In this document: one piece after another, positions 1 to 64,000 of the stretch
How the letters are laid out: each line of letters opens with the position of its first letter
Position numbering within the stretch: position 1 is the stretch's first letter
Source: Terramyces sp. JEL0728
Taxonomy: Eukaryota; Chytridiomycota; Chytridiomycetes; Rhizophydiales; Terramycetaceae
Reading direction: 5' to 3'
Assembly (NCBI GenBank): GCA_027603945.1
Contig: JADIIU010000006.1
Location: forward strand, 124,001-188,000
Length of the DNA stretch: 64,000 nucleotides
Made by a program: the position numbers and the translations under genes
The notes under the pieces: model-generated
Database searches by the model: none
What the model was told of the DNA's origin: nothing
The model's input: the letters and a program-made list of their open reading frames with translations, nothing else

Positions 1-1255
1 CTCTACCCAGCCTTTTGCCGATGTATAAAACTCACAGTCATCTGCACGGATATCCCGAACGAAAAGTGCTGCGTGAATTGCCTCCTCTAGAAATTCTTCG
101 TTCCGAAACACATATTCAGCAATCCCTAACAGTAGGCGGAAAGGCGGGGTCTGGCAAATCAGATGGTCGTATGGCCGTATCCCCAACTTTTCCCAACAGT
201 CAACAATCGCTAGCAATGACAAGTGGGAATTCTTTCGATTAATTCGCAAATACCGGCTTTCTCTCAGTTTTTGGGACTGCACCAAGAGAAAATTGATCCA
301 ACAGCGAGTCAGAAAGTAAGATTGGATTTCTCTCGAAACCTTGAAAAACAAAATCGCGAGCCTAAATCAAGGATAATTACTCGATACACTCGCGCTCTAA
401 ACTCTTTATCCTTTTCTTGGATCATCAGCTTGAATAGGTCCGAAACAGACTGTGCATATTGCTGGACTTGGCCAAAAGCATAAGGATTTAATAGCACTAG
501 CCCTGGAATTAGTTGCGAATACCAGCATATACGTGCCATTTGTTCCCATAGATTCTTAGTGCCATTAGAGTCTTGGCATTTTCAATACCGCCGATATATT
601 GAGCATTTTCCCATGGAAAGATTGTGTTGGTCTTCCATGCAGTGCCCATTGATAAAAATGCCAAGTGCGTAACTGCTTGAGTGTCTGCTGTAATGTGATC
701 GTGTTCTTTGGCTGTCAGATGGACTATTTTAGATTCAAGAGATTCTAGGATATCAACAGCTAGATCAAAACTTGCATTGTCGCTTCTATGTCTAATCATC
801 ACCAATGGCTTTGGTTAAATTGAATTACTTGGTTTTTTGGATTCACCGTAGGTCCATGCAAAGAGTGGCATGTCACTATATTCACATCATCTGGCAAATA
901 CTTTTCGAATGCCTTAATTTCTGGATCTTTTACTGATGTCTGTCCACATGCGATAGATCCTATTCTCATTGCTGGTCCAAATTGTGCAACCACCTTTTCA
1001 ATGTACGCTGCTTCCACTGAAAACATAATAAAATCGCATCTGCGAGCAATTGCGTACCCATCCTTCCATACTTTAAATCCTTGCTTTTCAAAAGGTTTAA
1101 TCTTTTCATAGTTCTCTGGCAAATCGCAAACATTCACACTAATTTCAATACCAGGTGTACTTTTTCCATCCCGCTTTCAGGAAATGCTTCCCGTATAGCA
1201 TCCCCATGTCTCCAAATCCTATAATACCCAACTCCAGCCTACTTTTTTCCGTCAT
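1..1255 (-). CDS. TYR1: Prephenate dehydrogenase (tyrosine biosynthesis), 3' end cut by window edge
   Basis: This gene encodes the NADP-dependent oxidative decarboxylase that turns prephenate into 4-hydroxyphenylpyruvate in tyrosine synthesis. The start at 1255-1253 opens directly into a Rossmann loop (GIIGFGDMG). The next exons carry the family-typical CHSLHGP, HDKITADTQAVTH-like and LRIYGNKWHVYAG stretches, which align along their whole length with the fungal enzyme as I know it. Five introns must be removed to keep frame: 1139-1160 (22 nt), 809-828 (20), 503-522 (20), 362-380 (19) and 232-253 (22). After splicing, conserved segments join exactly, for example KP|NSHLSLLAIVD across the last intron. 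The C-terminus, perhaps some tens of residues, lies beyond position 1. The enzyme is normally cytosolic. Its presence argues against a strongly reduced parasite that has lost amino-acid synthesis. Confidence 0.93.
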
Positions 1256-1418
1256 GTGTAAGTGATTGTGATTTCCAAAAAAGGATTTTGCGGGAGATTA
1301 GCGAGATTAATGGCCGTATGAAATAGAGAATATCCATCAGAAAAGAGACAATATCATCCATCTGCGGCTGATTAATGAGGAATAAGGTACCTGAAATTTC
1401 TTACTAGAACGCGTTTAT

Positions 1419-4400
1419 ATGGAGGAAATCAAAAATCTGTTAAATGCCGACCAAGATACGGCAGAGGAATACCTGTCAATAGAAAAATCCATCAAGGAAG
1501 CGTATAAAAGTTTATATGATTTAAATCTGGTGGTTGGAGACGACGATATCGAAAAATTCAACAATAGACTTAAAAACTGCCCACCACTACCTAACCGACC
1601 GAATACCCCCAAAAATATGGAATACGACAGCCTGGATACATTTCAAAAGACTCATAAAAAGAAATTCAAGTCCAATCTAAGTTCTTCCAAAAAACTACTT
1701 AGTAGCCAACTGTTGAGAGCAGCTCATGGAGACCGCCAGATACATGCGAAAACTCCGAGGCATAATGTCCTTTTTGACGAAAATGCATTTCAAAGAGTTA
1801 TCCCAAAGGCTTCCAGCGATTTCAATTTGGTTTATGCCCAGGATTTGGAAAATCAACATTTCGAACTTCCACAGTTTACAGGCACTGCCCAAAGATGGAG
1901 GACTGGTGTTTCATTGCCTATTACAATTACAAAGGTTGATAAAGCAAATAGCTATTCTCAGCAATTCGAAGATATCAAGCCCAAAGTGAATTCCAGACCA
2001 GTATCGGCCATACCAAAAATAGCAGAAGAACCTGAAGCAAAATTAAAAAAAGTGAAGCGAAAGAAGCCCAAGAAAAAAAAGGCTAAAAAGGTTATTAATC
2101 TGGATCTCGCAGAGGAAAAGCTAGCTGTCCTGGAAGAAACTTTGCCAGTGGATGGAAAAAAGTTGCCGCTGGAGTGGTTTGACAACCCCAAATTTTTAGA
2201 TACAAAGTCTCCAGAGGAATGGGTTGAATTTATCAAACGGTTGGCTGCCAAGGATTCAGTCTCTCTATCGAGATACCACAATATAAATGCAACAGCAGAA
2301 GAAGGGTGGAAATGGGGTAAATGCAAAGTGCTTGAATACGACGTTGACACTGAAATGTTTTTGATAGAATGGATCGACATAGGAGGACAAAAATGGGTGC
2401 GTAGATTCAATTTGTTGTTCCCTGGCGAAAATCTTGATGCTTTTTCAAGAAGGATGGAGCATGCATCCACCGCTAGGAATGAATATGAAATAATGGAAAG
2501 GTGCGAAAAGGAAATTAAAACTTCAAAATTAGAGACTTTAGCACCCTATCCGCCAAGCTTTAAAACAGGCATACTGAAAAGAGTGGGGCCAATTTCAAAG
2601 CAAAATGAGATCAACATTATTGTAAGTTGAAGATTGACAGTTAGGAAGACTGTTTCAAAGAGTTGCACGAAGAATATATGCATTCCATGAAAAAAGTCGA
2701 TTACACTTTGAAAATGCAACTTACAACAAAAGATCAGGCTATTCAAAAAGCAGAAAAGTTTACAGATTTAGCACTGTCGAAATTTGACGTGGAAAAAGAA
2801 GATTTGGGGGGATATATCTATTCTAGAGTAGCTGCAGTTTCAAGGGGGCTGTCGGACTACATGTTTCACGCAAATCCAAATCTACAGCTTGTTTTGAACC
2901 AGATTCTTGTTAGCCTACGTAATATCATTCAGCCAGAAAACCATTTCTTTTCCTTTACTATGGATTTTCCGGTAAAATTCATGAATTTCACCCAACGAGC
3001 AATTTCTCACTGTGAGTTAATCCAAACAAAACTGGTTCATGAATGGCCATTGACTATTGCTAAACTAATTGAAGATAAACTAGGGGATTTTTTCAAATTA
3101 AACGAGTCAAACTACAAATCATATTTGGACAGTAGATGCTACAGTTTTTTGTCGCTAGTAAACAGCATCATGGAAGGACAAGTGCACAATCTTTTAATTC
3201 ACGGGCTGTTAACATACCTAGGATTCTTCAATATCCGAGCTGAGGTGGTTGGAGAAAAAGTCAACCCTGCTGCAAAATTGTACTACTTGAGTTACTTTTC
3301 TCAACACAAATTGATACCGCCCAAATTCAATCAAAACCCGAAATTTTTGATTATTCATGTTGGTATTGCCAATGTAAAGGTCAATAATTCTTTTTACGGA
3401 GGAAATGTCAGCAGATTAATGAAGGATGTTAGTTTTGAACAAAGTAATGAGGTGGTTTTAACTCCAACAATGGAAGAAGTCAAAGAAGCGCTCATTAGTA
3501 CGTTTAGATTCCCCCTGGACCTGACAGACAGCCGTATTCCTACGATATCCAGTTTATTGATGGTAAACTTAATAGAAGTGGCACATACACACTTGCACAC
3601 GCTAGAATCGGACTCAACGAGTGTATTTGAAAAGGGAAAGGAAATCTTGTTTAAAATTATCGATGACGTTACTCCTAGAATAGATAGAATCGTGGACAAA
3701 TACAAAGCATATGAATACTTGATTCAAAATAATCCGCTGGACAAACTAACTTTAAACAGTCCCTTGGAAGATTTTTACAGACCTGTGGAAATTATTAATG
3801 AAGTGCGGTCTGAAATTTCAGACTTATCAAGGGACCAGGTAGAGGTTTTACCTTTTGTAGTTGACTGCTCAATCATAAAGGACCTGTTCATGGAACTGTC
3901 GTCTAAATCGTTCCTGATGATATCCGATCTTTTATCTCAAAAGATTAGAATCAAGTGCAACGAATTGCTATCAGTGTATGACGCACTTTCTGAACAAATC
4001 CAACTGGACCCCGGATTGGTTGCCCTGTGGTGGAAAGACCTGAAGACAGCTATTGACAATTGCCGAAGAGAGTATGATAACTTCCAGATTCAAGTAATTT
4101 GCTTTTAACGCAGTTTGAAGATGTGCAAAAGACTTGGCAAGTAATGTACAACTACACTATGCCAGTGCCAGACGACGTGAACCAATTATACTGGAAAACA
4201 TACGAATGGCCGAGCACAATGAGCAACCATTTAGAATCTGCCGACGCCAAGTTGAAAAACTCAAAGAAATTGATTTGCGCCAGAATACAGCGAGATATCG
4301 GATATGTATTTGACACAGTGGATAATTTGCAGGAGCAGCTGGTTTACTTTAACGAAATTGATGATATACAGCAGTCATTTATGGCAAATAGAAAAGTAAA

Positions 4401-7400
4401 ATCCCTCGTGGAATTAGTAGAGTCAACTGTTGGGTTGGTTGGATCAATCAGAAAGCAAGAAGAAGCCATGGACATCCCATTGTCGTCGTTTCGTTCATTT
4501 GAAGAGGTGATTGCTTCATATAGAATGTATGATGAAATGTGGCAATTAGTAGAGGATGTACACTCCAATCTCAACGAGTGGATTAACGAATGGTTCATGA
4601 ACTTGAATGCCGATATTATTGTAAGCAAAGTTCAATCGTGGAACGCTACACTGTTTGTTTGTTTTGATAAATTTTCGGCGAATCCACAAGCAACAAAAGT
4701 ATTGAACCAGTTGAAAATTGACATTGATGATTTTTGGAGAAATTCCAGTGTGATTACCTTCCTGAGGAACCCAGCCCTCAAACCTTACCACTGGGAAAAA
4801 ATCAGTTCAGTAATCGGTCTCTCCCTCACTGATTTCCAAACTCTTCGCCTGGTTGAAATTCTGGATTTAGACTTGGAACTAGTGCAAACGGTAATCGCGG
4901 ATATTACAAATCAAGCAGTTTTAGGATATAAGCACGATCAACTACTCGATAAAATGAAAGCAGAACTAACACAAAATGAGTTTTCTGTAGAACAAATACC
5001 CAACGAAGAAACTACAATTTTAACAAATATCGAAGTGTGCCAAAGTATGCTGGAGGATCAACTCATCAGATGTGAAAATGTCTTCATTTCTGTGGAAGAT
5101 AATGAGTCCAGGGCAAAGTTTGAAAAATGGGTAACGCAAATTCACAAGGCACTGGAAATGCTGAACCTGATCAACGAGCTTCAGAGATTTTACACAAGAC
5201 ACCTGCCTATTTTCCGAAGTAGCAATAACCTCTCTATTATAGAGAGCAATATGGTAGAGTTTTTTACTTCTGCCGCAAAGACAATTACTATAGCCCTCGA
5301 TGTATTCACCAAAAATAGGAAATTCATAACCCTCATATATCGAACCGATTTGTACGAATCAATCGCTGGAGCAATAAAGAGAGTAACTTATGTAAAGGAA
5401 AATATATCAGTCACTCTGCAGTAATCGATAACTAAAGTAGAACAAAAAGAAATCAATTTCCAAGATTCTATTTCGTTACAGACGAGCATATGCTTGATAC
5501 CCTTACGTGCACTACTTTGGATCAATTAACAAAGATCGTGTATCACTATTTCCCTTCAATCGGCAAGCTCATTGAGGGACACAAAGTAGTAGAGGTGCAG
5601 GCCCAGGATGCACAGCCAGCAAGAGCAAGCGGCAGAGGAGCTTTGGTCAAGGGCGGAGGACTGGCAGTCAAGAAGCTGATCGAAAAGAAGAAACAAAATG
5701 AAATTCGCGTCCCAACGGTGGAAGGATTTTTTGGATTTAGTGGAGAACGCGTTGCTTTCACTCCGCCATATGAATTTAAGGAAGTTGATGTGTCGTTGAT
5801 TGAACTGGAAAAAAATATGGTTGAAGCGCTTAAACACAATTTCCTGAACGCGTATCAGTCTACTGTGGATATTGATATTAGCGAGAAAGTCATCCATGCG
5901 TATCCATGCCAAATTCTGATGGTTGTATACAAAAATGTGATTGATAAGCAATTTGCAAAGCTAATAGATCAGTGGGATAAATACAGATTCAGAGAATTCA
6001 GGAATGCGCTTTTTTCAAATTTGGAGATTATTCTCGATTTACTACGAAATACAAGCCAATCTATGGACAAAAAGATTAAATTGGAAAGCTTGGCTGCCCT
6101 GTATTTCCTATATTATAGCAACACTGAAGACCTCCAGTCTGCGGAAAAATTTAATCTATATAATTTAAAATATACTGTGGAAACCCCTCCAGATATATGT
6201 ATTTCAGTTAATGACTCCAAAAGGTTCAAGTACGGATTTGAATATATTGACGGTGGAAGTAAATTAATAATAACACCCTCCATTTCACAAACATTTTACC
6301 GAGTAATCTATTCGTTATCCTCGCATAAACTACCACTACTATGCGGACCAAAAGGATCGGGGAAACTTTCGGCGATCAGTGAATTTTGCTACTATCTTGG
6401 GTTCCCATCAAAGTTTTATTCTGGAAATATCGTAGACAAGTACTTTTTGAAGAATTTGATGTTTGGAATCCAATCAACTTACCATGCAGTTATCATTTCA
6501 AACTTTCATTTGCTGGCAGACGAACTCCATCAACTGCTCTCGGCCGTAGAATTGCGAAATGACTACTTGAAAACATCATTCTTGAAAATGCCTTTGATAT
6601 TCACCGTGCCAAATCAAGGAAGCTGGGGGAATATTTTTCATGCATATCGCAAAAAGTATCGATTGGTTGGTGTGATGAAAAAGGATCTATTTGCGTATTT
6701 AGAGGCATTATTAACGGTGCAGAATTTCAAGCAAGCTAAAGTACTAGCAAAGAAAGTTTGTCTAATAGCACATCATACCCAACTTATATTTCAAAGAGAA
6801 ATTTTGAACTCTAGCAACATCAAATACATTGTTGATTTGGCAATTCAATCCAAAAGTATATCCAACGGAAATGAATTTGTCCAGCTTAAAAACGCTGTTG
6901 TTACTTTTTTCAAATCTGCTGTATCAGCTAACGATTTAAATTCGGTAAAAGACATTGTAAACTCTGTTTTGAAATTGCATGTCGACGCCGATGGATTCAG
7001 CACCAACGATTTGATTGAAATGGCCAGGAAAATGTATGTGGATGCAAAATTGACCCCGCTGGATTACTACTGCGGCAAAGTTGCCCAGGTTATAACCAGT
7101 ATTCAAGCAAAAAGGAACGTGATCCTTTTAGGAGGAAACTACACCGGAAAGTCCACTGTATTAAACATTGCGCAGTCGGTAAAGAATAATTTGCTGCCGA
7201 AAAACGCATTTATTAAACTGTATAGACATTTTCCAGACGCAATTCATCCCGACAGGCTTATCTACAAGTCAGTTAACTCGAGAGAAGGAATTTCACAACA
7301 AATTTTACACAATGCCAGACTTCATATTTCAAAAATGGTGCAACTTTGTGGACCTCTAATTGCAAGTGAGCACCGTTTCTCGTGGTTTCTTTTGGATGGT

Positions 7401-10400
7401 GATGTTTGCAACGCTTGGCCCGAAATAGTAGACACTATTGTTTGCTATGAAAGCTCCCCCCATTTTAAAGCTGTTGACCTATTTTATGAAACTACAAATT
7501 TGGCGAATTACGCACCAAATCTCATGGCAAAGTCCTCTATTGTTTTCCTGGAGCAAAAGCATTTGAAATGGGACACGTTAATTGCCAACGAGCTTATTGA
7601 AGTCCCAAAAGTTGTAAAAAAGCAGGAAAGATTTATTCAACAGCTTCATGAATCAATTTTAGTTCCAACTATAAAGTTCCTGCAAATTAATGGATTCTGG
7701 CCGTCCGACTATTACTCTGAAAAACTCGCACATATCCGAGTATTGAAAATGCTTTTATGTTTAATTGTAGAAAAAGGAACCAAGGGTTACGAAAGGCTAA
7801 CCACCAACGAACAAAGTTTATGGATTCTATTCAGTTTCCTTTTCAGCGTTATATGGACAGTTGGCAACCATCCATCCTACGAAAAAAAAGTCGAGTTTGA
7901 TCGGTTCTTTAGAGATCTCTTGAAAAATATGAAAGGAGACCTTTCCACGTTAGAGTCTGTTGCAAATCTCAGCAGCGGTTACCTTGCGAGTGCAATGGCA
8001 ATTCCAGAAACCAATTTGATATTTGACTACATTGTGGATGACAAGTTGACACAATGGATACCTTGGCCAAGTGGGAACGAGGAAAAGCTGTATGGCTACG
8101 CCTCGAACCCACTGAATCTGTTTACCTCTCGGGATTTAATACAGGTGACTTACTTTACAAGATTGTTTATTAGGAGCACTAGTCCTATTGTCATTTCTGG
8201 ATTCAAGGGAGTGGGGAAAACCAAAAATCTAGTCGCGGCACTGAAAAATATATTAGACGATCAAGCAAAACATTTTGAAGACGGCATTGGCAAAATTGCA
8301 CTGTCGAGATGCACTACAAACGAATCTTTTCAAAGCCAGTTTGCAAAGAATACCTTCAAAAAGAGACACAATGCGCGAGGATCTCAGGATGGTCGCAGAA
8401 AAATCATTTTTGTGGAGGATATGCATTCCATTTCATATTTAGGAGTCCAAAATTCACCCACAGAAACACTTCGAATGATCTGCGATACGAAAACGTGGTT
8501 TTCCGACACTGATGCTATGGAATCTGTCAACAATATCCAGCTCACCGCCGAATGGCGAATATCCAAAGCCAGAACCGACGTGTCTACCCGCATTGCAAGA
8601 TACTTTTTAGGAATTATTTTGGACGACGACGAAAAATTTAAGATGGAAGATATGTTCAAAGCTGCACTGGTGAAAAAATTTGAAAAATTGGACTCTGCAT
8701 TTGCAGGGAAATGTTTTGAAGCTACTTTTGATATCTACAGAAAATTAAAATGCACCATGCTACCAACGCCTACTACTCCCCATGTCCAATTCCTAATGAA
8801 AGACGTGGCAAACATTTTCAAAGGGCTGTTGTGTTTTCCCCAGAAAGCTACTAATTGGGTGGAAGCATTCGAGCTATGGACTCATTGTCTTTCGCTGGCC
8901 TTTAAAAACAGATTATTTGACTCGGAAGCTGGGCAGTATGAAACCGTTGCAGATGAAATTGTAAGGAAATACTTTGAAGTGGAGCTATACGTAAACCAAT
9001 TTGAAACCCTGCCATATTTCTACACGCAACCAGATGTAATCATATCGTTCGGGTCGGCGAGTGCTAATTTGAAAATTATGGACCTAAATGTACTTGTCAA
9101 CAGCATTAGGTACAGAAATTCTTGGATATTGGAGCTGGGGTCCTTGGACGAACTTCATAATGATGCATTGGTGATTTCCAACCAAATGGCTTTTACATTT
9201 GTGAATATGAATTCGCATATCGTGCTCATTGACTCGTACGATCATATGAAGTTTAAAGCCGCCCAATTGTGTTCGTTTTTAATCATGCACAAGTTTATGC
9301 ATTTCGAACCAAAAAAACTCACATCAACCGAGGAGGAGGAAGAGTTGCGATGGGTTCAGCATATGAAAAATATTGTCAAACTCCAAAAATCTGAACAGCC
9401 GCTGCTGCTCTTTTTTGACTTTTGCGCACTAAACAATAGTCAAATATTGGATGTTATCTCTCTTTTAAAATATGGAATTCCAGCGTGTTATTACGACAAA
9501 ATATATCTTGAAAAGAGGACTATTATTGAAGACAAACAAATTGGACTGGAAAAGTTTCGCGATTCAGCAAAGCGATTGACAAAAATATGCCTCTCGCTTC
9601 CATCAATGGAATTTTGTTTGCAAAATCAAGTGTGTGTAACTTATCCAAATTTGCTGTGCTTGGGCACTATATATCAACTACAGCCGATATCTCCGCTTTC
9701 ATTAGAAAATGTTATAAGGAGCAAGTTCAAGGAATACGGCTTTATCCAAACGATTGATTTACTACCAATTGGCAGTTTTATTAATTGGGCATACACCGCT
9801 ATTCCAGGTATTTTAGAGGATAAATTTGTAAACGAAAAAGATTTGGACTTGATGACCCAAGATAATATAGTCTTGGCGGCTCTAGAATTCGCAAAGCAGT
9901 TTGTTTTCAACTGCAAGGCAAAGATGGAAAATAGAGAGAGGCTAGAAACTGCTATTAAAATGATTGACAAATCGTTTTCCAGCATGGATAACACGCAGCT
10001 GGAATATGATCAAAAGAAAGAGGTAGCTGTAGATTGACATCAGAAAGCCGAGCAGGATAATGAAGAAACTCAACTTCTGCTGCAGGAAATGGAAAACGAT
10101 CGAAACTCTATCGAGTTGAATCTTGCTGAAGCAAAGAAAGACTCGGAGATAAACGCCAGATACATGGAAGAAATGGAATACTTAAGAAGTCTATGCACAA
10201 CAGAAATAGAAAAGGTAATTCCTCCGCTACAAGAAGCTATCGCAGCAGTCGAGTCTTTAGATAGAGCAGACATTTATGATTTAAAAGGGCTGACTGATCC
10301 GTCTAAAAGTATTTTGACTGTCCTGGAATGTGTTGTTATCCTTCAAAAATTTGATGTAAAACCAGGAGAACAGATGTGGGAAGCAGTTAAAAGAATGATA

Positions 10401-13400
10401 TCCGAAAAGCATTTTGTAGCAAACATCAAAAATTGTATCAGTGATTCTCATCATATTACACCAGTAATTGTGCACATAGTCGATCGAATGGCAAAGGGCG
10501 ATATTTTCAACTCTAAAGGAATAACAAACAATGCTACAATAGTGCTACGGAACTGGGTGGTTGCATACACCAAATATAATGCAACAAACCTTGAATTAAA
10601 TCAAAAACGGAAATTGTTGGAGGAGACTGAAATAAAGTCCCGAGAAAAAGATACAGCAATATTGGAAAGTAAGAATAAAATAGTTGAACTGGAAAATCAA
10701 ATCAAACTCAAACGAGTACAATTTGGGGAGATGATAAAAATGCACGAGGAAACAAACTACAGACTTAAAGAACTAGAACATAAACTGGCTTCAGCGGCCT
10801 TCATCAAAGGCCCATTAGAATCGTTGAAATTAAAGTTCCTCGACCTGCTTGATAAGGCAGTGGATGCCCAAAATAACGTATTGCCTCAATGTTTGGTTTC
10901 AGCTAGCTCACTGGTACTTTTAGGGCATTTCCCCCATTATATCCGAAAGTTAATTAGAAAATCTTGGGTTGCAAAGCTGACAGATTTCAATTTGCCAGGC
11001 TTGGGCGAAGACTTTGATGCGCTGAATATTTATGAGCCAGTTCATAATAGGCAAGGTGCAATATCGTACGACTTGCCTTCCGACGATGCAGTCTATGAGA
11101 CGATGCTAATGGCACGGTATTCCAGCAAAATTCCAGTTATTCAAGATCAATTACAAATTGCAACCAATTGGTTCCAAGTGATAGAAAAGGATTCAAAAAT
11201 CGAATTCCTACCGTTTAACACTCCTAATGTTATTGATAAAATTGAAACGGCAATAGGGCTTGAAAAGAAAGTTGTGCTGCAGCTACCTCCCAATCCAAAT
11301 TATACATTGTTTGAACAAATTGTAGATTTCGCTTTAAAGTTACAAAAGGAAAGTGAAAAGGGTACAAGCGTGATTCCAATGAAAGACTTTCGGCTGTACA
11401 TCGTAACCGATTCTCTGCTGAGTGATGTATTTTCCAACTGCCCATTTAAAAAGCATTTGGCTCCAATTAACTTATCTCTCAGCTCCCATTACACAGAAAA
11501 GGTGATTGAAGACAGCATTTGCCGAATTCACAATGAAGACTTGAAGAAAAAGACCATACTGTCCTTAAGCGAAAATATCCAGTTGCGGTTGCGCTTGAAC
11601 ATTGTGTATGCAAGGGCAATCGAGTTTGCTAAATCACTTGTTGATACCGATATCTATGGGGGAAATATGTATCAAACTATTATCGACACAGATTCTCAAT
11701 TGAATACAATTATCCAGAAAATATTTCATCAGAATCAAACAATCGAAGCCTATAGCAACCTTTTGCAGCCGTATGCCACTTTGGGAAAATCATTGGAACC
11801 AATTTATGAATGTATGAGCAACATGATCAGGATAAACCCGCGGTACAGCTTCTCAATGGATGAGTTTTTAGGAGTATGCAAAGAGAAAATTGCTATGCTA
11901 GCTCCGACAATAACGGATGTGGGTTCTAAAGCCTACTGCGAAGAAGTGCTTAAATTTGTGTACTATAGCTACGTCCCTGGGTAAATCGTTACTGATAGAA
12001 GGTTAAAGGCTCCAGACCAAAGCATTTTTTCGTTTATGCTCGCAGTTTCCATCGCACAAGCACCGCTTTATCAAAAAGACGAATCGCTGATATTCCCAAA
12101 GATTTATATCAAGTTTTTGTTTTTGTATAAAGTGCCAGACAGGAATAGGGAACATAGGAGCCAAAAACCGCTGGAAACAATTTTGAAGAACCCGGCAAAG
12201 TACTGGCTCGCAGAAGCAAAATGGAAATTCATAACGAATTTGGCAAACTTCTCTAGGTTTCAGTCTTTTGCACCAGATTTTAGTAAATACGCAAACAGAG
12301 CGACTACCCCACAGTCGGAAGTATCTTGGCAAGAAATATTTGAAGCTCGAGATCCGCTCAAAATACAAATGCCTGTTCGATGGCAGTTCCATCTGACTAG
12401 AATTGAAAAGTATTTGGTATACAGAGTTATTCGCCCTGATTCTTTGTCTCTAATAATGGACGAATACTCAAAATCAGTGTTAGGGTCGGGAATTGTTGAA
12501 ATAGGATTCCCAAATGATCTGCTCCTGCAGAGATACCAATTGATGACCCCGTATAAGCCAATAGTGCTGTTTATCGAGGATTTGGAAGACCCGATCACCT
12601 TAATTCAGCAATTGAATTCGAAATTTGGCTCGTGTCCCATGATTGTCGTTAATTCCAACTCAATCGGCGATTCCTTCGACTCTACCATTCAAAATGCAGT
12701 TAATACTGGGACGTGGCTTACTTTATGTCTGTATAAAAGCAGTTCGGAAGAAATGGATCTTTTGTTTAGAAAATTAAACAAATTACAGGAAAATCAGTCT
12801 AAAACCGTGTCGTCATTTAGACTCTTTATCATTTCAAATAACGAGGATCATATTCCTAATGCATTTCTAGCAAATTCACTAAAAATTTTCAAAGAAGACT
12901 ACCAAGAATATCGCTACTATCTTAATGATGCACTCCGAACGCTGGAAATCAAGCACATTTCTTTGGAAGAGTGCGAAGAGGATTTCAAGAGACTTTTATT
13001 CAACTTTTGTGTTTTCTATTCTGCAGTAAAATACAGGATGAATGTTGGATTATTGACAATTGACAATTATTTACAGATAGCCATTCCCGATATTTCTTGG
13101 GCAATCAAAAAGCTGACTGCAATCAATAATTTTGTTACGAAAAAGGTTGATACTTCAGTTGAGGCAGATGTAGTTTATTTGTTCAGAAGCATTGTGGAGA
13201 AGAATTGGGGAAGTCAGCTGCAAAACGAAACAGATAGCCAATGGTGTTACGAACTTTTCAAATATATAATGGCGATTAAATGGCCAGAAACCGACGACTC
13301 AGTTGCAAAATTGAATTTGCCTCCTTTAAAGCAAATCTACGATCTTTTTTGCAAAAATTCATTTTCGCAAGTTCTTGAACAAGTTGCAAAATTGCCAAGG

Positions 13401-49806: not shown

Positions 49807-49940
49807 TCATTCCCAGCTAATATTGTCTTTTGATTTCCGGCGAGTGTGCTGAACAGTTTAGCATTGAGTCGCTTTGGTTCAGTAGTTAGACACTTTTGAA
49901 TTATCTCTTTTTTCACTAAATTATCTTGAGAAATTTCGGA

Positions 49941-50649
49941 ATGTATCAAGATACAAGCACTTTAATGATATCCAGACTCAAGAAACTACCAGCCATTAAA
50001 TTACACTCTGATACCCGCAGTATCTGTACGAATGAGCTGCTGGCGACGCATTGCTTGTTCATTGTTATCCGCACTCCAAAGTAAATCCAATTAATCCCAG
50101 CTGTGCAATGTGCAAGCGGACAATCAGCGAAATCAAGAAACTCAATCTGTCTGTATTTTACTCTAACGCAGGAATTCAATGTGTCGATTTACATTGTCGC
50201 AAAGGACGAAAAAGATTATGTTGCATTTGACAGACGAAAAGTCCTGATAGATAAAAAGATGGAGTTTTACAAGGTGCTGGGAGAAGGTAAAGTTCGCACC
50301 ATGCCGGTTTCACAATGTATTCGCAGTTAATGGTAGTGCTACATCCGCGGCTGATTTATAATGCACTGGCAGCACGAATGGAAGGATTCTGGGATTCACC
50401 ACAAGTGTCCGAGAACAAGTAAACTCAATTGATGAAAGAATACTTGGAGGTGGGTTGCTAGTAAGTGACAGAGGCGAAATTGTATTTAAATATTTGGAAG
50501 AGGTAGCTGGAGATCGGCCAGATTTGGTTAGTTTGATCAACGCCTGTCAAGCATTGAAAAATCAAGAGGATGCTGAACAGGACTTTGAAACTGCGTTTTC
50601 GAGTGAAAGTCTGGTATCAATGGGGTTCGACTTTGCCAAAATTACTTGA
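49941..50649 (+). CDS. PRXL2/AhpC-TSA_2-like thioredoxin-fold protein, copy 1
   Basis: Five exons give 209 residues. Introns: 50081-50100 (20 nt), 50153-50171 (19), 50317-50336 (20) and 50419-50438 (20). The fold is thioredoxin-like with a CxxC redox site (RTPNCAMCKR), IYIVAKDEKD, the KVLIDKKMEFYKVLG strand-helix, KILGGGLLVSDRGEIVFKY and DLVSLINACQALK. This pattern is that of the peroxiredoxin-like 2 family, where it suggests a cytosolic thiol oxidoreductase. ATG 49941 is chosen; a second in-frame ATG is at 49965. It is a tandem paralogue of the next gene (both 209 residues) but has two additional introns, one cutting the codon before the CxxC motif. Confidence 0.78.
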
Positions 50650-50730
50650 TACACACTAGAGGTTTATTTTCTGTTTCGAGAACTTTCTCTAGTTGGGTAA
50701 TTTTTGTAAATTTTTCCGCCCTTCCAATAA

Positions 50731-51399
50731 ATGAATTCGAAATTACCTATTTTACCAACATATTCCCTGCAACCAGTAACAGGAAACCAAGAGCCGATTA
50801 CTACAGATGAATTACTGCAGAAAAGCCACAGTTTATTCATCGTCCTCCGTACTCCAAACTGTCCACTTTGCAAAAAAACAGTGCAAGTCCTGACAACAAT
50901 GGGACTGGAAGTAATTCCTGCTAATATAGGAATACAATGTCAGTGTGTATGTGATTTTAAAAGACAAAATCGACGCTCATCACTTGGATTACGATAGAAA
51001 CAAAGTACTGATTGACGAAGAATACAGTTTTTACAAATTCTTGGGAGATGAAAATGGACAAGTGCGAACGATACCAACAATAAAACTCTTGTCGCCTGGC
51101 CCAGTTAAAGAATACGTTAAAGCTTATTATGAAGGATTCAGGAATACCGAGCATTTAAGCGACAATATGTAATATTTTTTAATGGCAGGGTGTTGGGTGG
51201 GACTATACTTGTCAGCAATCAAAAGGAAGTGCTATATCAGTTTAGCGAGCCGCTACCTGGCTACCAACCTGATCTGAATCGCATAGTGAACGATTGCAGG
51301 GCTTTGAAAGGACAAGCTACTGCAGAACAAGATTTCAATGTGGCATTCTCGACAGATAACCTGCTGTCATTAGGAATCGACTTTAGTAGAATTGGATGA
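50731..51399 (+). CDS. PRXL2/AhpC-TSA_2-like thioredoxin-fold protein, copy 2
   Basis: Three exons give 209 residues; introns are 50911-50929 (19 nt) and 51169-51188 (20 nt). The CxxC site is RTPNCPLCKK. VYVILKDKIDAHHLDYDRNK, KVLIDEEYSFYKFLG, QVRTIPTIKLLSPG, the GGTILVSNQKEVLYQF strand pair and DLNRIVNDCRALK match copy 1. Copy 2 lies 81 bp downstream in the same direction, so the pair arose by tandem duplication, but they have diverged considerably. Its two introns sit at the same positions as introns 2 and 4 of copy 1. Introns 1 and 3 are absent without scars. Function is inferred from the family only. Confidence 0.78.
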
Positions 51400-53428: not shown

Positions 53429-55793
53429 ATGTCTGAAGAAAAAAAGGCCGAATTGGCTTACGACATTGAAAAGCACGAAATAGACTTAGATGACGCCGAA
53501 TTGGCCGATGCTGAATTGGCCAACGACTGGATTGCCGGTGTAGTTGTAAAGGAAGATGACCCAGATACTCCAGCGTTGACCTTCCGTACCTTGTTGTTGG
53601 GTTGTATCTGGGCAGTCTTTTTGGCTTTGGCTAACTGTTTGTTCACCTTCAGAGCCAACCCTTTCATTATTCCAAACGCTTTGGCCACCCTTTTGGCTTA
53701 CCCTATGGGTATCTTCATGGCTGCCGTCCTCCCAGATGTTCAAGTCTTTGGCTTCTCTCTCAACCCTGGGCCATTCACTGTCAAGGAACATGCGTTGATT
53801 ACTATTATCGCATCCTCAGCTGGTGGTCAACCTTATGGTGTTGACAACGTTGTTGGTCAGCACTGGGATAGATTCGTCGCTGACAGAGATATTACCTTCT
53901 GGAACTCTTTGCCATGGATTCTTGCTACTCAATTCATTGGTTATGGTGTTGCAGGTCTTTCAAGAAGATTCTTGGTCAGACCAGCTGCTATGATGTGGCC
54001 TGGTGTCTTGCCATCTATTGCTTTGTTGAACTCTTTCCATGAAAAACCTGAAGAATCTACCGAATCCAAGAGATACACTTTGTCCCGTTACAACTTTTTC
54101 TGGATCATTTTCGCCTTCATTTTCATTTATGAATGGCTCCCATTGTACTTTGCTCCAGCTTTCTCTATGGTCTCTCTCCTTTGTATCCTTGCAGGAAAGA
54201 ACCGCACTCTCAAAATTTTCGGATCTGGTGGTTACCAAGGTGGATTTGGTGTGTTGACTCTCTCCTTTGACTGGACCATTATCACTGCTTCTGCTCCATT
54301 GGCCACTCCTCTCTGGGCTGGATTGAACTACTTTACCGGCTACATTTTCTGGGGCTGGATCATTGTCCCAATTGTTGAATATACCAATCCGTTCAATGTT
54401 GGTTCTGAATCTAAGAGCCCAGAACTCGGAAACTTGATCTTATCCAGAATGGGCTGGGGTGAAGCAAACAATTACACTACCGACCCAATCCGTATGGTCA
54501 ACGTTCCTGGTATCTACAACAAGAATGGCAAGAAAGTTCCAATCACAAGAAATAACGAAAGTAAAGCTATCTTGAACTACAACTCGCCACCAACTATTGA
54601 CGAAACTTTCTATGAAGCCAACAAACCATTCTACCTTACCTCCAACTTTTCCATCTGTTACTTTGCCTCTTTCATCAACATTGCTGCAGTGTTCTCACAC
54701 GTAGTCTTGTGGTATGGAAAGGATGTTTACCGCCAAACCAAGGAAGCCATTAACCAAATCAACGACTCTGAAGAAGATGAACTCAACGTTAGAATGAAAG
54801 CTTACCCAGAAGTTCCAGATTGGTTCTACCTTGCTTTCCTCGGTGTTTTCACTCTCTTGCAAGTAATCTCTGGTTTAGTTACTGCATTCAAGATGCCATG
54901 GTGGTCTTCTCTATTTGCTGTAGTTTTGGGTACCATCTATGTTATTCCAATCGGTGTTATTCAAGCTGTTTCTGGATACCAAATGGGTCTCAACGTATTG
55001 ACTGAATTCATTATCGGTTTGTTGACTCCTGGAGATATTGTTGGTGTTATGTGCTTCAAGTCCCTCGGCTACAACATGGTTATTCAAGCTCTTAACTTGG
55101 CCTCTGATTTGAAGATGGGCCACTACATGGCTATTGCTCCAACCTCCATGTTCATCTGTCAAATGATTGGTACTTTTATCGGTGCTATTGGTAATCTTTC
55201 GGTTGCTTTCTGGGCTGAACAAGGTCTTGCAAATCAATTTGAAAACAATGGTAATGCTTGGGATCCATCTACTTCTTATGGTGTATTCATTAACGCTGGT
55301 GGTATCTGGGGTGCTATTGGACCTGCCAGATTCTTTGGTAAAGGATCTCCTTACTACTCTTTGTTATTAGGTTTCCCAATTGGTATTGTCCTTCCATTCA
55401 TCCCATGGTTGTTGAACAAGGTTGTCCCATCCAAGAACTGGCACTTGATCAACATTCCACTTTTGACCCAAATGAACTTTACCGGTCAAAACCAAGGTTT
55501 CCTTACTATTCCTTTCATCTTGAACATTGTATTCAACAAGTTCATCTATACTTACAACAGAGAATGGTGGAACAAGTACAACTTTATCTTATCTGTAAGA
55601 ATATTTCTAATAATAGGTTGCTTTAGATTCCGGTGCTGCAGTCGCTACTTTGGTAATTACTTTTATGCAATTCCAAATTACCAGTCCAGTTGGTGTCAGT
55701 TTCTTCAACCCTGCTCAACCAGTTAACCCAACTGTTGATTACTACTGTTATGAACGTTCTTTCAACGGATCTGAAGCTGCAGGTTATCCATAA
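53429..55793 (+). CDS. OPT-family oligopeptide transporter 2, strongly codon-biased
   Basis: Two exons encode about 780 residues; the single intron is 55595-55616 (22 nt), close to the 3' end. Without splicing the frame ends early in a non-conserved tail; with splicing it gives SVALDSGAAVATLVITFMQF and the usual OPT ending with NPTVDYYCYERSF. Motifs parallel OPT1: AYPMGIFMAAVLP, NPGPFTVKEHALI, GGQPYGVDN, LGYNMVIQALNLASDLKMGHY and GGIWGAIGPARFFG. The N-terminus is an acidic cytosolic region with duplicated DDAELADAELA. Codons are restricted to a small set (GGT, GCT, TCT, AAG, AAC, TTG), unlike OPT1 and most neighbours, which points to high expression. The start is ATG 53429; the frame opens slightly earlier with GTG. 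Confidence 0.94.
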
Positions 55794-57633: not shown

Positions 57634-57666
57634 AGATCTTCCAGGGTTGTAAAATGAAAAAAGAGT

Positions 57667-59017: not shown

Positions 59018-59044
59018 AAGAATTGATTTAGAAGGTGTGTGCTT

Positions 59045-59102: not shown

Positions 59103-59170
59103 CATTGATAGAGAAACAATATTTTATTAGTCGGTGCGGAGTGCTGTTACAGCTGCCGGGAAATTCTAAG

Positions 59171-60880
59171 TTAACAAATAAACACCTTCATGACATGAAT
59201 TTGAGCAGCTGCAGCTTCCTTGCATTGAATAACGTTTAAAACTTCAGCTTCTGTGCGAGCAATTTCAATCGCTTGATCATAAACTACCAACGCATCTTCC
59301 ATTTTGTTTTGGTGGCATAGTAATTGCGCTAATTGAGTATAGGCAATGTCGCACAGCGGATCAACCTCAATGGCTTTTCTGCAAAGCTTTTCAGCTTCGT
59401 TTGCATCTTGTTTCCATTGAACACAAAGAATGGCCTTGTTGATATACGGTAATGGAGAAGACGGATCCATAGAAATGGCCTTGTCGAAACTCTTTTCAGC
59501 TAATATTAATCGAATTTACCATCAACAAAGGTTTGCTTATCCATCAAGATTTCACCATGATAATTCCAAACTTCTGCACTGTTTTCAAACAGCTTCTTTG
59601 CTTCTCTGAATTTCTTTTCAGCACCAACAATGTCACCAAGCTTGTATTTGGCGACTCCCATTTGAATGTGGACATACACTGAAGATTCAGATGCGCTTTC
59701 ATTCTTTAATGAAGTGCTGTAGTCATCAATGGCACCTTGGAAATCTCCAGTCAAGAACCGGACTTGCCCGCGGTGATAATACAAATCAGGGTTTGTTGAA
59801 GATATTAAACTAGCCTTTTCAAACTGTTCAACAGCTCTTTCCACGTCTGCTCTCTCCATATAAAGCGTTGCTCTTTTGATGATGGTGTTGATATTCTTTG
59901 GGTCGTTCAATAATGAGTTTTCCAGATCCGACACTGCATCGTCAACTCTTCCCATCAAGAATAGAATAGTTCCTCTATAGTTTAAAGCTTTTGCTTTAAT
60001 GAATTCAGTGGAAAAATCGTCGGCTGCGATTGTTTCTTCAGCCAAATCAAAAGATTCTTGCCACTTGCGTGCTTTTGCAGCTTCAAAGGTTTTTTTCAGT
60101 AGCAAGTCAGATTCGTTGGTAGTGTCCAGTTCTGCAGTAATTGTATAATCATTTGGAATCGTTCTGAATGAATCCATATATGCGGAAATGAAAGTTTCCG
60201 ACGGCATTTTGGCAACTTTGGTTTTCATTACATCTCTGGCTTTTGCAGTTGCAATAACTTTAAGAATACGATCTGGTGCAGCAAGAGATTGTTGATTTTG
60301 GAATCCTTCCAAAACGCAAACAACAGTGAAATCGTTCAGCGCATCTTGCAATCTTTCCAACTTTTCGTTGGCAACAGCTCGGCGATGGAATGCTTTAATA
60401 TATTTAGGATCCAATTCAATTGCTTTGTTGCAATCGTCGATCACCAACTCGTATTTTCCAAGGTTGGAGTATGATGCTGCTCTGTTGCAATAATACACGG
60501 ATGTAGGCGCTAAATCGATCGCTTTGGTGTATTGCTCAATTGCCTTGTCATATTTCTGTTCTGCATAGAATTTGTTCCCCAATGCTTTTGCTTGTGAAGC
60601 TAATTCAACATTTTCGTTTGAAGATTCTTGAACTGGAGTTGTTGTTTTTGGACTCTTGACTTCCTTTTCTACAACAGGTTCTAGAATGAATTGATATATT
60701 ACCAGGAGCATCTTGGGAAGTCTTTGACTTTCTCTTCTTTGGCTTCTTTTTCTTTGCTGCAACCTTGGCATCTACTACTTCTGGCTTGGCGCTTGAATAA
60801 TATACTGCGCCAGCTACTACCCCAGTAGCAATGGTAGCACCAAGGAGGAGTTTCCAATTCTTCTTGACAAATGTTTCCAT
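59171..60880 (-). CDS. TOM70: TOM70 mitochondrial import receptor
   Basis: Three exons give about 555 residues; introns are 60681-60702 (22 nt) and 59500-59519 (20 nt). The start (METFVKKNWKLLLGATIATGVVAGAVYY) is an N-terminal outer-membrane anchor, followed by a Lys-rich linker (AAKKKKPKKRKSK). TPR units follow: ALGNKFYAEQKYDKAIEQYTKAIDL, YYCNRAASYSNLGKYELVIDDCNKAIEL, and many more to the end. The clamp-type TPR and Tom70 core (ALNDFTVVCVLEGFQNQ) match the family. It receives Hsp70/Hsp90-bound carrier precursors, which would include the AGC carrier encoded nearby. The start at 60880 is the ATG just before the anchor; the longer frame begins at a GTG further upstream. Confidence 0.92.
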
Positions 60881-61169
60881 TGGAATTTGGATGAAAAAAA
60901 ATTTCTGCAATAATATTAATATATATCTTCCCACTCCAATTGAGAAGGGCAGCAGGATGTGCATGCACTTGCTCCACTTTCACGAACCAGCTATAAGGTT
61001 GTCACACGAATTCGCTAACCGCAACGGTAATCGAGCTGCTAAATGTGCCCAATCGGCATTCTCAAACAATTTGGATTTTATTATATGGTACAAAAACTCG
61101 TTTCACTTGCTTGGCTGTTACGTCATGCCAACCTGATTCAATTCGCGCTAAACTTCTTTATCTTTTCTA

Positions 61170-62105
61170 ATGGGCACCTCCAGTCAAGCAAATTCCAATA
61201 TCATAGTAGGAGCAGCGACAGATATCGGGGGAAAGCCTGAGCAACAGGACGACTATCTGGTTTTGCCTAATTTTTTGGTCATTGACAATCAAATAGTACA
61301 TTTGATAGGCATCTTTGACGGGCATGGTAAGCAATACTAAATCAAGGAAGCGACGGAAAGAAAGCTGCAAATGAAGCGAAAGCGCTATTCCCTACTGTGT
61401 TGGCCTCGCTCAAAGACACAATAAAAGAAGACCCATTACAAGCACTCAAAAACTCGTTTACTATTGTAAACGACAATATGAGGCACAACCAAGCGATTGA
61501 TACTTACTTGTCAGGAACCACAGCAGTAATATCACTAATCATTGACAACAATCTCCACGTCGCCCATGTTGGGGATAGCAAGTTGGCAATATACAAGGAG
61601 AATGAAAAAAAACTAAGCGGGAAATCGCTTACAATGTAACTGTCGTTGACGTTAGGGACCATAATTGCGACTCTGCTGACGAAAGAAAACGTGTGGAGGC
61701 AGCGGGGGCAAGAGTGGAGCAGTTATGGTTGGATGGAAAGGCTGACGGGCCATTAAGAATATTCAAAGGCACACTACCATACCCAGGGTAATTGCCAGCT
61801 AATTTAGAATCATAGTAACGCGAACACTTGGCGATGCGGCTGCTCAAACAATCGGTGTGTTGCCAGACCCTGATGTACTGACAGTAAAATTGGCCCCAGA
61901 AGACAAATATCTGGTTTTTGGCACCGATGGCTTGTGGGACGGCTTATCTGTTGATCAAGTAGGAAAAGTCATCTTGAAGGGAGGAAATCCAGTCGAAATT
62001 GCAAACAAAATGCTAAAGTACGGACTTGATGGACTCAACAAAAAGCAAATAGATGACAATATTACACTTATCGTTTGCCGCTTGGCTGGTGGGATATTAG
62101 CGTAA
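61170..62105 (+). CDS. PP2C-type protein phosphatase
   Basis: Four exons give about 291 residues; introns are 61327-61346, 61636-61655 and 61788-61807 (each 20 nt). Metal-binding motifs are present: EQQDDYLV near the start; the DGHG motif, cut by the first intron between H and G; GTTAVISLIIDNNLHVAHVGDSK; after the second intron LTMDHNCDSADERKRVEAAGARV; then VTRTLGDAA; FGTDGLWDGLS; and DDNITLIV. It is a Mg/Mn-dependent Ser/Thr phosphatase, likely cytosolic. The apparent frameshift around 61636 is an intron: splicing restores the canonical A-LT-DH...ER block, so the gene is intact. Confidence 0.92.
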
Positions 62106-62203
62106 ATAAAATGTACATTTTTCATATCTCTTTCCAATGAGTCGCTTGAATGGCTGCAAATATTGCTTTGGTTTCGATTTTAAAATTGTAAAAAGCAATC
62201 GCA

Positions 62204-64000
62204 ATGGATTTGAAAAAGCTACAGCAAGGTACACCAAAAATAATCAAGATGCGCTTTTGAAGATGATCAACCTGAATCAGGAAATATCTGATTCGGAAAT
62301 AATATGGAAGGTGCTCATATATGACAAATTTGGACAGGATGTTATCTCGCCATCACTTCGATTAGGAGAATTAAGGTCATCTGGAATTACCCTGCATATG
62401 TACTGTTTAGCTTAACGTCAGGTCATTAGCCAGTGATAGACAGCCCATCCCCGATGTCCCTGCTATCTATTTCCTTGAACCAACTCCAGAAAATATCGCA
62501 AATTTAGGAGAGGTAATTGAAAAGTAATGAATTAGGATTTAAAGAAGCAGCTGTACGATTCGTTTTACATTAATTTTACATCAACATTGCCAAGAGCACT
62601 AATGGAGGATTTGGCTGCACAAGCAGTTTCAACAAATTCGCAGCAATTAATCTCCCAAGTCTACGACCAATATTTAAATTATGTTTGCTTGGAACCTCAA
62701 TTGTTTTCGTTGGAAATTCCAAGAGCTTATCAAATATTAAACAGTCCAACAACGGCAGAATCAGTAATTGAAAGACTGGTGGACCAAATCGCCTCATCCC
62801 TGTTCTCAGTAATAGTCACATTGGGAAATGTTCCCATTATCAAGTGTCCAAAAGGAAATGTTGCCGAAGCAGTTGCTAAAAAGTTGGATTCAAAGTTGCG
62901 CAATAACATTTTGAATAGTAGAGCCAGTTTGTTTGCCAACCAAGTTCACTTGACTCGTCCAGGTGATTCTTACTAATTTAGTGTTGATACTCTTGGACAG
63001 GGACTTGGACCTTACTTCGTTGTTAACTCACACCTGGACATATTCTACACTTTTCCATGATCTACTGGACATGAAATTAAATAGAGTATGCTTTATGGCA
63101 GATGAAAAAGGCAGAAAGGTAGAAAAGAAATACGACATTGATGTTGCTGATCCATTTTGGCTAAAAAATGCTGCAAGTCCTTTACCAGAAGTTGGCGGTA
63201 CATTGTTTATAATTTAGTGTTTATTGATGAAGAAACAAAAAGCTACCACGAGCAGGTCAATCGAATGGGTGCCGATGCCGCTGATCCAAACGACTACTCT
63301 GCCACCACAGGAAGTCTAGCCTCTACAATGCAGAAATTGCCGGAATTAAGACTGAGACAAAAAGTACTGGATATGCACACTGTTGCAGCTACCTCATTAT
63401 TGAATGGGATCATGCAAAGACAGTTGGATTCGTTTATTAAGATGGAAGAATCGTTGGGAAAACTGACTACACCGGCGATTTTGCAAGTAATCAAAGAAGA
63501 GCAAAAGCTACCAGAAGACAAGTTGCGTCTAGCACTTGCATATATATTGTCGTGTGATGTCTCGAATGACGATGTAAACAAAATTGAAGCTGCATTATCG
63601 GAAATTGGTGCTGAAACTTCATCTATTAAATTCATCAAAAAGTAATATCAGTTAAACCTAGTATTCGAATGCAATTCAAAATGATGTCGACTGCAAATAC
63701 CCCCAGTCAAAGTACGGCATCAACCTCTGATCTACTTGGAGCTTTTTCGTCAAACTTTTCAAGAGTAATTCGATACTAATCAAGTTTACCGGTACTCTAC
63801 AAAACGCTGGCATCGGAGAAGGATTTGGTAATCTGATTGCTGGGGTAAAGAATATGCTCCCCACACGCAGCGAACTTGCAGTGACCAAAACTGTTGATGC
63901 AATTATGGAAGGGAGCGCTCCAGGAAGCGGAACGGAAGATTACTTGACGTTTGATCCAAAGGTTGCTAAACCACAGTTTTCAGCCAAGAAGCAAACGTTT
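62204..64000 (+). CDS. SLY1: SLY1 (SCFD1), Sec1/Munc18 protein, 3' end cut by window edge
   Basis: Introns: 62229-62248, 62400-62421, 62513-62535, 62963-62981, 63198-63217, 63642-63661 and 63765-63784 (20, 22, 23, 19, 20, 20 and 20 nt). Spliced sequence follows SLY1: ALLKMINLNQ, EIIWKVLIYDKFGQDVISP, DRQPIPDVPAIYF, DSFYINFTSTLPRALMEDLA, VYDQYLNYVCLEPQLFSLEI, VLILLDRDLDLTSLLTHTW, KKYDIDVADPFW. It clasps the syntaxin-5/SED5 SNARE complex in ER-Golgi transport. The first intron contains no in-frame stop, so a longer open frame begins at 62137; removing it and starting at ATG 62204 gives MDLKKLQQDALLKMINLNQ, which matches the yeast N-terminus. The last ~100 or more residues lie beyond the window. 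Confidence 0.93.

Follow-up and report, generated by a model that had tools for sequence, protein, structure and literature searches.

The genes of Terramyces sp. JEL0728 (Chytridiomycota, Rhizophydiales) very probably carry U2-type spliceosomal introns that have been compacted genome-wide to 19–23 nucleotides (nt), with a mode of 20 nt, to judge from the genomic sequence. Taken alone, the identity of these elements as U2-type spliceosomal introns is nearly certain. The starting point was a 64,000-nt stretch of contig JADIIU010000006.1 (positions 124,001 to 188,000, forward strand), hereafter the window, where a first-pass annotation had placed 71 such introns in nineteen genes. This observation was reproduced exactly and is confirmed, and the interpretation given with it was supported in most respects. 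A gene finder predicted 70 introns, spread over 19 of the 27 gene models (17, 31, 10, 10 and 2 introns of 19, 20, 21, 22 and 23 nt, respectively), and a hand-placed 22-nt intron at 1139–1160 brought the total to 71 (17, 31, 10, 11 and 2).

The sample, 264 kb of the 15.0-Mb assembly, comprised the window plus twenty 10-kb stretches from 17 other contigs and from elsewhere on the contig of the window. The gene finder combined a three-periodic coding model with the Viterbi algorithm and was trained on uninterrupted open reading frames only; in its first pass it had no splice motifs and no knowledge of intron length beyond GT..AG and a length range. Later runs used learned motif scores and allowed 12–300 nt, and a final short-range model admitted only 15–30 nt. 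A plain motif scan for distances between donor words and YAG gave no clear peak, because G at position +5 is weak, and was replaced by this coding-frame approach.

A cluster near 20 nt was detected in the window already with the finder trained only on uninterrupted reading frames. Over the 264 kb, the third iteration with a flat prior of 10–120 nt yielded 28, 51, 20, 19 and 6 introns at 19, 20, 21, 22 and 23 nt and 0–5 introns at every other length. The peak stayed when 12–300 nt was allowed with learned motif scores (70, 120, 46, 32 and 7 introns at 19–23 nt, 1 at 18 nt and none at 24–25 nt). Thus, the open-range runs show one narrow class below about 25 nt with a single peak at 19–23 nt, and no second length peak up to 120 nt (flat prior) or 300 nt (motif-score run). 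Introns commonly of 50 nt or longer elsewhere in this genome, which by the first-pass annotation would have refuted it, did not emerge from the sample. Its claim of a genome-wide population was borne out as far as the sample reaches: ultra-short introns occur in all 21 stretches, with 6–21 in each of the 20 outside the window. The final short-range model gave 155 gene models, 111 of them with ultra-short introns, and 362 introns, of which 358 were 19–23 nt long, a purity that is partly built in because only 15–30 nt was admitted. If retained, 295 of 359 introns of 18–23 nt would shift the frame, and 55 of the 64 whose length is a multiple of three contain an in-frame stop. Extrapolation suggests about 20,000 introns in the genome if the sample is typical, which is arithmetic and not a count.

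It might be argued that the gaps reflect pseudogene decay or frameshifts introduced by sequencing or assembly, as indel errors can mimic any frame-restoring gap. Such an explanation would have to account for a length peak that is specific to GT-AG. With a flat prior of 10–60 nt and motif scores off, GT..AG produced 110 gaps of 19–23 nt in the 264 kb, whereas 27 other dinucleotide pairs, treated by the same procedure, stayed at a background of 7–24 each. It is further opposed by a branch motif that was not imposed and yet stands at a fixed spacing, by protein blocks conserved across the junctions, and by introns that both copies of a duplicated gene retain, in two cases with frame-neutral indels. 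We consider the probability of error or decay practically negligible.

Reading frames across the junctions

To compare junctions with homologs, we counted ungapped alignment over 12 residues round each of 12 introns in the genes for the aspartate-glutamate carrier AGC1 (W7), glutathione synthetase (W8, with its closest relatives left out of the homolog set) and SLY1 (W15). At 10 of the 12, the junction was ungapped in at least 103 of 116–119 homologs. AGC1 spliced in silico was 100% identical over 625 amino acids to the deposited Terramyces sp. JEL0728 protein. Similarly, the gene for the splicing factor U2AF65 scored 251.7 bits when read through and 333.8 bits after removal of four 19–20-nt introns (cut-off 310.3). 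From such sequence evidence we infer that the introns listed below are spliced.

Near-identical duplicated blocks were found on contigs C3, C18, C26, C42 and C44 and on C111 and C199, either about 29–62 kb apart within one contig or on two contigs; they are either tandem duplications or unmerged haplotypes. Three pairs, about 1% different, were compared. One indel was counted among 11,867 exonic sites (at the extreme end of a gene model), two among 523 intronic sites and eight among 1,847 intergenic sites. Both intronic indels are one-base changes in the pair L029/L030, each altering intron length from 21 to 20 nt without loss of the reading frame. Indel density differs between introns and exons (2 in 523 versus 1 in 11,867 sites, Fisher p 0.005), although the support from these indels is modest in number.

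Several deposited proteins carry what appear to be scars of these introns. In the Terramyces glutathione synthetase (HDV01_006262), 8 and 27 residues are missing beside W8 introns, and in the SLY1 database protein from the same contig 8, 40 and 28 residues are missing. All five deletions have at least one edge within one residue of a predicted splice site, so that one true site was apparently paired with a wrong one, giving a longer intron; the introns so implied are 43–139 nt long, by arithmetic from the proteins and not as read from the annotation. The deletions touch 6 of the 12 introns of AGC1, glutathione synthetase and SLY1, and both AGC1 introns agree with the present models. In HDV01_006262 (window 48309–51399), glutathione synthetase is also joined at its C-terminal end to the products of two tandem thioredoxin-like genes, W9 and W10. 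Public gene models of Terramyces sp. JEL0728, and possibly of related genera, can therefore drop conserved residues, a point of importance for chytrid annotation and phylogenomics.

These database models, which lie on the window's own contig, could also be taken at face value. The real introns would then be about 40–140 nt long and the 19–23-nt class would be a modelling artefact, and it is true that the open-range run returned 141 candidates of 24–300 nt. However, splicing of this kind would delete 8 and 27 residues from glutathione synthetase and 8, 40 and 28 from SLY1, and much of this sequence is present in relatives. The longer candidates are scattered and have no length peak; 52 use one splice site of a short intron, another 13 fall at places that require no intron, 16 run antisense to genes, and 60 are isolated and unexplained. 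Among the 89 candidates with neither site in common with a short intron, YTRAY stands at the right distance in 19, in a run that itself favoured YTRAY-type words; the figures for comparison are 262 of 359 short introns and 4.2% of all AG. We regard longer introns at these sites as very improbable; a small minority of longer introns in the genome is possible.

The same 27-residue stretch of glutathione synthetase is missing in Boothiomyces sp. JEL0866 and Globomyces sp. JEL0801, and the Boothiomyces macroporosus protein starts just beside the first junction, which suggests that relatives have ultra-short introns at the same places. Counting against this, B. macroporosus retains the 27 residues, and AGC1 and SLY1 of Globomyces pollinis-pini have no scar. 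On these sequences, an extension of the trait beyond Terramyces to Boothiomyces and Globomyces can be proposed only tentatively.

Splice signals, machinery and proposed mechanism

The 359 introns share the 5′ consensus GTAAnT (A at +3 in 89%, A at +4 in 58%, T at +6 in 65%). The G at +5, which normally pairs with U1 and U6, occurs in only 20%, and T at +6 is the stronger position. A branch-site consensus, YTAAY, emerged from the first pass, in which no motif was imposed. The first-pass annotation had described branch-point words a few nt from the 3′ AG, and indeed a YTNAY word lies 4–9 nt before the intron end in 306 of the 359; the narrower YTRAY, 4–7 nt before the end, is found in 262 of them versus 4.2% of 30,818 AG sites. 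The branch A lies mostly 13–14 nt after the first G and mostly 5–6 nt before the last G. In 261 introns, just one YTRAY word lies where expected (5′ arm 12–16, 3′ arm 4–8); for these, the variances of the 5′ and 3′ arms were 0.53 and 0.49 and their correlation was 0.06 (permutation p 0.27). The arms vary independently, which we interpret as a separate rule for each distance and not a single rule for total length.

The annotation's statement that all introns are GT-AG needs a small correction: these ends are nearly universal, with three GC-AG and two GT-TG candidates outside the window. In runs on a larger set of loci that penalised other ends without forbidding them, GT-AG was kept in 448 of 452 and 449 of 456 introns. 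The GC-AG candidates and one of the GT-TG candidates (in L026) came to light outside the window, together with seven further odd end pairs that occurred once each and are probably misplaced. The other GT-TG candidate, read by eye, is a 20-nt intron in a kinase gene at about 2192–2211 of L004 and L005; it has CTAAC at the usual distance and is identical in both copies. Perhaps distance could substitute for AG in this case. The introns do not have the U12-type 5′ splice site, RTATCCTT, as a typical start; GTATCC was outside the 25 commonest 5′ hexamers of the 359 introns, the first being GTAATT with 58.

An inspection of spliceosomal genes, as the first-pass annotation had proposed, found U2, SF1 and U2AF65 intact and did not find U1 small nuclear RNA (snRNA) in searches of the assembly. 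U2 snRNA was detected at 140 bits (contig C70, 14443–14635, L031), and its branch-pairing region matches the family consensus. SF1 has helix-hairpin (HH), KH and zinc-knuckle domains by Pfam; the query was the first 420 of 466 residues and includes a doubtful 15-nt gap, alternatively a 21-nt GC-AG intron. SF1 also contains RRKTRW, which resembles the U2AF65-binding motif. U2AF65 matches its family profile from position 68 to 507 of 510, and its YWD..P.GYE motif resembles the U2AF35-binding site. Smu1/RED is needed for short introns in human; RED had no match here, but none in any control genome either.

The extreme size and uniformity of the introns might call to mind a removal that does not involve the spliceosome, such as DNA elimination of the internal eliminated sequence type, a tRNA-type endonuclease or ribosomal bypassing. 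The GT-AG ends, a YTAAY branch site compatible with the conserved U2, and the intact SF1 and U2AF65 genes all speak against such routes, whose chance we judge to be vanishingly small. Instead, the conserved U2, SF1 and U2AF65 point to an ordinary U2-type spliceosome working in an extreme geometry.

In this ordinary spliceosome, each intron would be bound as one compact unit. SF1 and U2AF65 may read the branch site and AG together as one element, because no polypyrimidine tract fits between them, and U2 would then pair with the branch site in the usual manner. The first G and the AG would each lie at a fixed reach from the branch A, and intron length could drift by 1–2 nt within the limits of the two reaches. 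In human B complexes, a distance of 15 nm separates the U6/5′ splice site helix from the U2/branch helix, the 5′ splice site and the branch site are thought to require a spacing of about 52 nt, and cutting it to 46 nt in the MINX substrate abolished splicing in vitro (PMC6692369); the corresponding distance in Terramyces is 13–14 nt. Since 13–14 nt cannot hold both extended helices of the human B complex, the 5′ splice site would probably be handed over sequentially, or be bound by a shortened helix, and would not be held by U1 while U2 is fully docked.

Several observations weigh against the interpretation as a whole or in part. Two of the 12 junctions fall in gapped alignment regions (31 of 116 and 19 of 118 homologs ungapped), the intronic indels all come from one block pair with none in the other two, and 53 of the 359 introns have no YTNAY word 4–9 nt before the end. 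The U1 snRNA family search of the 15.0-Mb assembly was empty, in a search that did not include the U1 proteins, and no contiguous U6 snRNA was found in it by family and pattern searches, so that the machinery is only partly documented. The order of the binding steps, which we infer, is no better than an even guess.

The searches for U1 and U6 had U2 as their sole eukaryotic positive control. The canonical U1 5′ end has 4 matches in the genome, and there is no U1 at any of the 4 loci. Two U6-family matches (27 bits versus a cut-off of 44) are inside a protein gene present in two near-identical copies. A search for the U6 core pattern that tolerated at most 2 mismatches produced 18 matches versus 16 for the reversed control, and none of the 8 of these 18 that were examined is U6; neither the U6 consensus as DNA nor two further U6 patterns, one of them gapped, had a match in the assembly. 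U6 must exist, and the failure to find it points to a gap in the assembly, to a gene that is interrupted or has diverged, or to limits in the search. Any claim about U1 is therefore weakened.

It is nevertheless conceivable, if unlikely, that splicing is spliceosomal with an altered early step: U1 would be lost or strongly diverged, recognition would proceed from the 3′ half, and the 5′ splice site would be picked by distance. The empty U1 family search, the four 5′-end matches without U1, the low frequency of G at +5 and the almost fixed 5′ arm fit this idea. However, empty searches are weak evidence when U6, which is necessarily present, was also missed, and the U1 5′ end in Terramyces may start differently from the search pattern. 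A bolder version appears more doubtful still, namely that Terramyces, Boothiomyces and Globomyces have rebuilt early assembly, with U1 lost or unrecognisable, the 5′ splice site set by reach from the U2-bound branch A, and U6 diverged or split by introns of this kind, which would explain the lack of a contiguous U6 match. If true, this would be a fungal spliceosome whose B-complex geometry is unlike that of human and yeast.

Comparison with known short introns

Populations of ultra-short introns are a known kind; as far as the literature searched goes, their occurrence in a fungus is new. We found none reported for a fungus or chytrid among the matches listed from limited open-access literature. 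The first-pass annotation had spoken of a candidate for an undescribed system, which was too strong given the known kind and the conserved U2, SF1 and U2AF65. It was right to place the organism on the fungal side of the opisthokonts, this being a Rhizophydiales chytrid with flagellar genes, and also in its comparison with chlorarachniophyte nucleomorphs (18–21 nt) and Stentor (15–16 nt), to which the mikrocytids (16–17 nt) should be added.

Chlorarachniophyte nucleomorph introns (18–21 nt, PMC10245619) have a near-identical length range, with many introns in a narrow size class. However, a nucleomorph is the remnant nucleus of an endosymbiont in extreme reduction, whereas Terramyces has a fungal nuclear genome with a 15.0-Mb assembly and flagellar genes. 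In the heterotrich ciliate Stentor coeruleus (introns of 15–16 nt, PMC9505925) the branch A is at nt 10 of 15 or nt 11 of 16, near-fixed at 5 nt from the end, and most core splicing proteins are kept. The 5′ arm of Terramyces is 4–5 nt longer and its YTAAY is clear where Stentor has a weak branch consensus; all snRNAs were reported in Stentor, whereas U1 and U6 were not found here. The 5 nt of Stentor and the 5–6 nt of Terramyces suggest a shared floor for the distance from branch site to 3′ splice site. Mikrocytid introns (16–17 nt, 224 predicted in M. mackini, PMC10245619) are also uniform in length, numerous and provided with conserved motifs, but occur in parasites with a reduced proteome and spliceosome, and the number in M. 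mackini compares with about 20,000 extrapolated here.

Type B introns of Trichomonas, the shortest 23 nt, are short and have CTAA near the 3′ end; a 23-nt intron was called among the shortest known to date in a 2025 paper (PMC12316389), whereas most Terramyces introns measure 19–22 nt. Unlike Terramyces, Trichomonas has an intron-poor genome and also type A introns of 56–196 nt. Other fungi share GT-AG spliceosomal introns, and a survey of 644 fungal genomes found chytrids relatively intron-rich and called a mean of 63 bp "relatively short" (PMC8476143), against a mode of 20 nt in Terramyces. This organism thus offers a nuclear, fungal test case for the minimum size of a spliceosome substrate, and for the question whether there is a common floor near 5 nt between branch site and 3′ splice site.

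Introns and genes of the window

All introns below except 1139..1160 come from the gene-finder model, and the branch A is counted by nt position in the intron. Pfam was run on 17 of the 27 gene models, with W1 represented by its first 1,383 residues only.

232..253, minus, 22-nt intron, TYR1-like gene (W27), branch A at nt 15
362..380, minus, 19-nt intron, W27, branch A at nt 14
503..522, minus, 20-nt intron, W27, branch A at nt 14
809..828, minus, 20-nt intron, W27, branch A at nt 14
1139..1160, minus, 22-nt intron, 5′ part of W27, missed by the finder and hand-placed, no YTNAY word
2622..2644, plus, 23-nt intron, dynein heavy chain (W1), boundary uncertain (first pass put a different 23-nt gap there)
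4094..4113, plus, 20-nt intron, W1, branch A at nt 15
5421..5440, plus, 20-nt intron, W1, no YTNAY word
10023..10043, plus, 21-nt intron, W1, branch A at nt 15
11981..12001, plus, 21-nt intron, W1, branch A at nt 15
14038..14057, plus, 20-nt intron, W1, branch A at nt 15
14264..14283, plus, 20-nt intron, W1, branch A at nt 15
15206..15225, minus, 20-nt intron, S9 peptidase (W26), no YTNAY word
16115..16133, minus, 19-nt intron, W26, branch A at nt 14
17168..17186, plus, 19-nt intron, RPN7/PCI protein (W2; CSN1 in the first-pass annotation)
17322..17340, plus, 19-nt intron, W2
17545..17564, plus, 20-nt intron, W2
17985..18003, plus, 19-nt intron, W2
18562..18581, minus, 20-nt intron, Ferry subunit 3-like (W25)
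18657..18675, minus, 19-nt intron, W25
19307..19328, minus, 22-nt intron, W25, no YTNAY word
19797..19815, minus, 19-nt intron, W25
26719..26740, minus, 22-nt intron, W23 (long coiled-coil-like protein, by inspection)
29149..29170, minus, 22-nt intron, W23, no YTNAY word
29916..29937, minus, 22-nt intron, W23
31295..31315, minus, 21-nt intron, W23
31361..31381, minus, 21-nt intron, W23
31451..31470, minus, 20-nt intron, W23
34564..34582, plus, 19-nt intron, putative CFAP58-like (W4; name from the first-pass annotation)
35189..35210, plus, 22-nt intron, W4
35445..35464, plus, 20-nt intron, W4
35781..35800, plus, 20-nt intron, W4, no YTNAY word
36016..36037, plus, 22-nt intron, W4
36312..36332, plus, 21-nt intron, W4
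36605..36623, plus, 19-nt intron, W4
36872..36892, plus, 21-nt intron, W4
38140..38160, plus, 21-nt intron, TBC-domain protein (W5), no YTNAY word
38772..38791, plus, 20-nt intron, W5
39792..39810, minus, 19-nt intron, armadillo-repeat-like protein (W21)
40479..40498, minus, 20-nt intron, W21
40779..40798, minus, 20-nt intron, W21
41048..41067, minus, 20-nt intron, W21
41187..41206, minus, 20-nt intron, W21
41856..41875, plus, 20-nt intron, OPT oligopeptide transporter (W6)
44284..44302, minus, 19-nt intron, 3-beta-HSD-like (W20)
44428..44446, minus, 19-nt intron, W20
46770..46790, plus, 21-nt intron, AGC1 (W7), junction ungapped in 119 of 119 homologs, deposited protein agrees
47012..47032, plus, 21-nt intron, W7, ungapped in 119 of 119, deposited protein agrees
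48569..48587, plus, 19-nt intron, glutathione synthetase (W8), ungapped in 113 of 116, deposited model lacks 8 adjoining residues
48933..48951, plus, 19-nt intron, W8, ungapped in 110 of 116, gone with the next exon and intron in deposited models
48952..49032, plus, 81-nt exon, W8, absent from deposited Terramyces, Boothiomyces JEL0866 and Globomyces JEL0801 proteins
49033..49052, plus, 20-nt intron, W8, ungapped in 112 of 116
49329..49349, plus, 21-nt intron, W8, weaker support (ungapped in 31 of 116), no YTNAY word
50081..50100, plus, 20-nt intron, thioredoxin-like protein (W9)
50153..50171, plus, 19-nt intron, W9
50317..50336, plus, 20-nt intron, W9
50419..50438, plus, 20-nt intron, W9
50911..50929, plus, 19-nt intron, W10 (similar to W9)
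51169..51188, plus, 20-nt intron, W10
55595..55616, plus, 22-nt intron, W11
59166..59185, minus, 20-nt intron, TPR protein (W16)
59500..59519, minus, 20-nt intron, W16
60681..60702, minus, 22-nt intron, W16
61327..61346, plus, 20-nt intron, PP2C phosphatase (W14), no YTNAY word
61636..61655, plus, 20-nt intron, W14
61788..61807, plus, 20-nt intron, W14
62400..62421, plus, 22-nt intron, SLY1/Sec1 family (W15), ungapped in 115 of 118, database model lacks 8 adjoining residues
62513..62535, plus, 23-nt intron, W15, ungapped in 116 of 118, no YTNAY word
62963..62981, plus, 19-nt intron, W15, ungapped within 6 residues in only 19 of 118, database model lacks 40 adjoining residues
63198..63217, plus, 20-nt intron, W15, ungapped in 116 of 118
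63642..63661, plus, 20-nt intron, W15, ungapped in 117 of 118, database model lacks 28 adjoining residues, no YTNAY word
63765..63784, plus, 20-nt intron, W15, ungapped in 103 of 118

The name of W27 was taken from the first-pass annotation, and Pfam gave only PDH_C (E 0.0017). The dynein heavy chain gene W1 (window 1419–14565) has a DHC_N2 domain by Pfam, and the CFAP58-like gene W4 spans 33829–37403; the two, the latter putative, are flagellar genes, as expected for a zoosporic chytrid. Similar transporter-like genes are located at 41654–43920 (OPT by Pfam) and 53429–55793.

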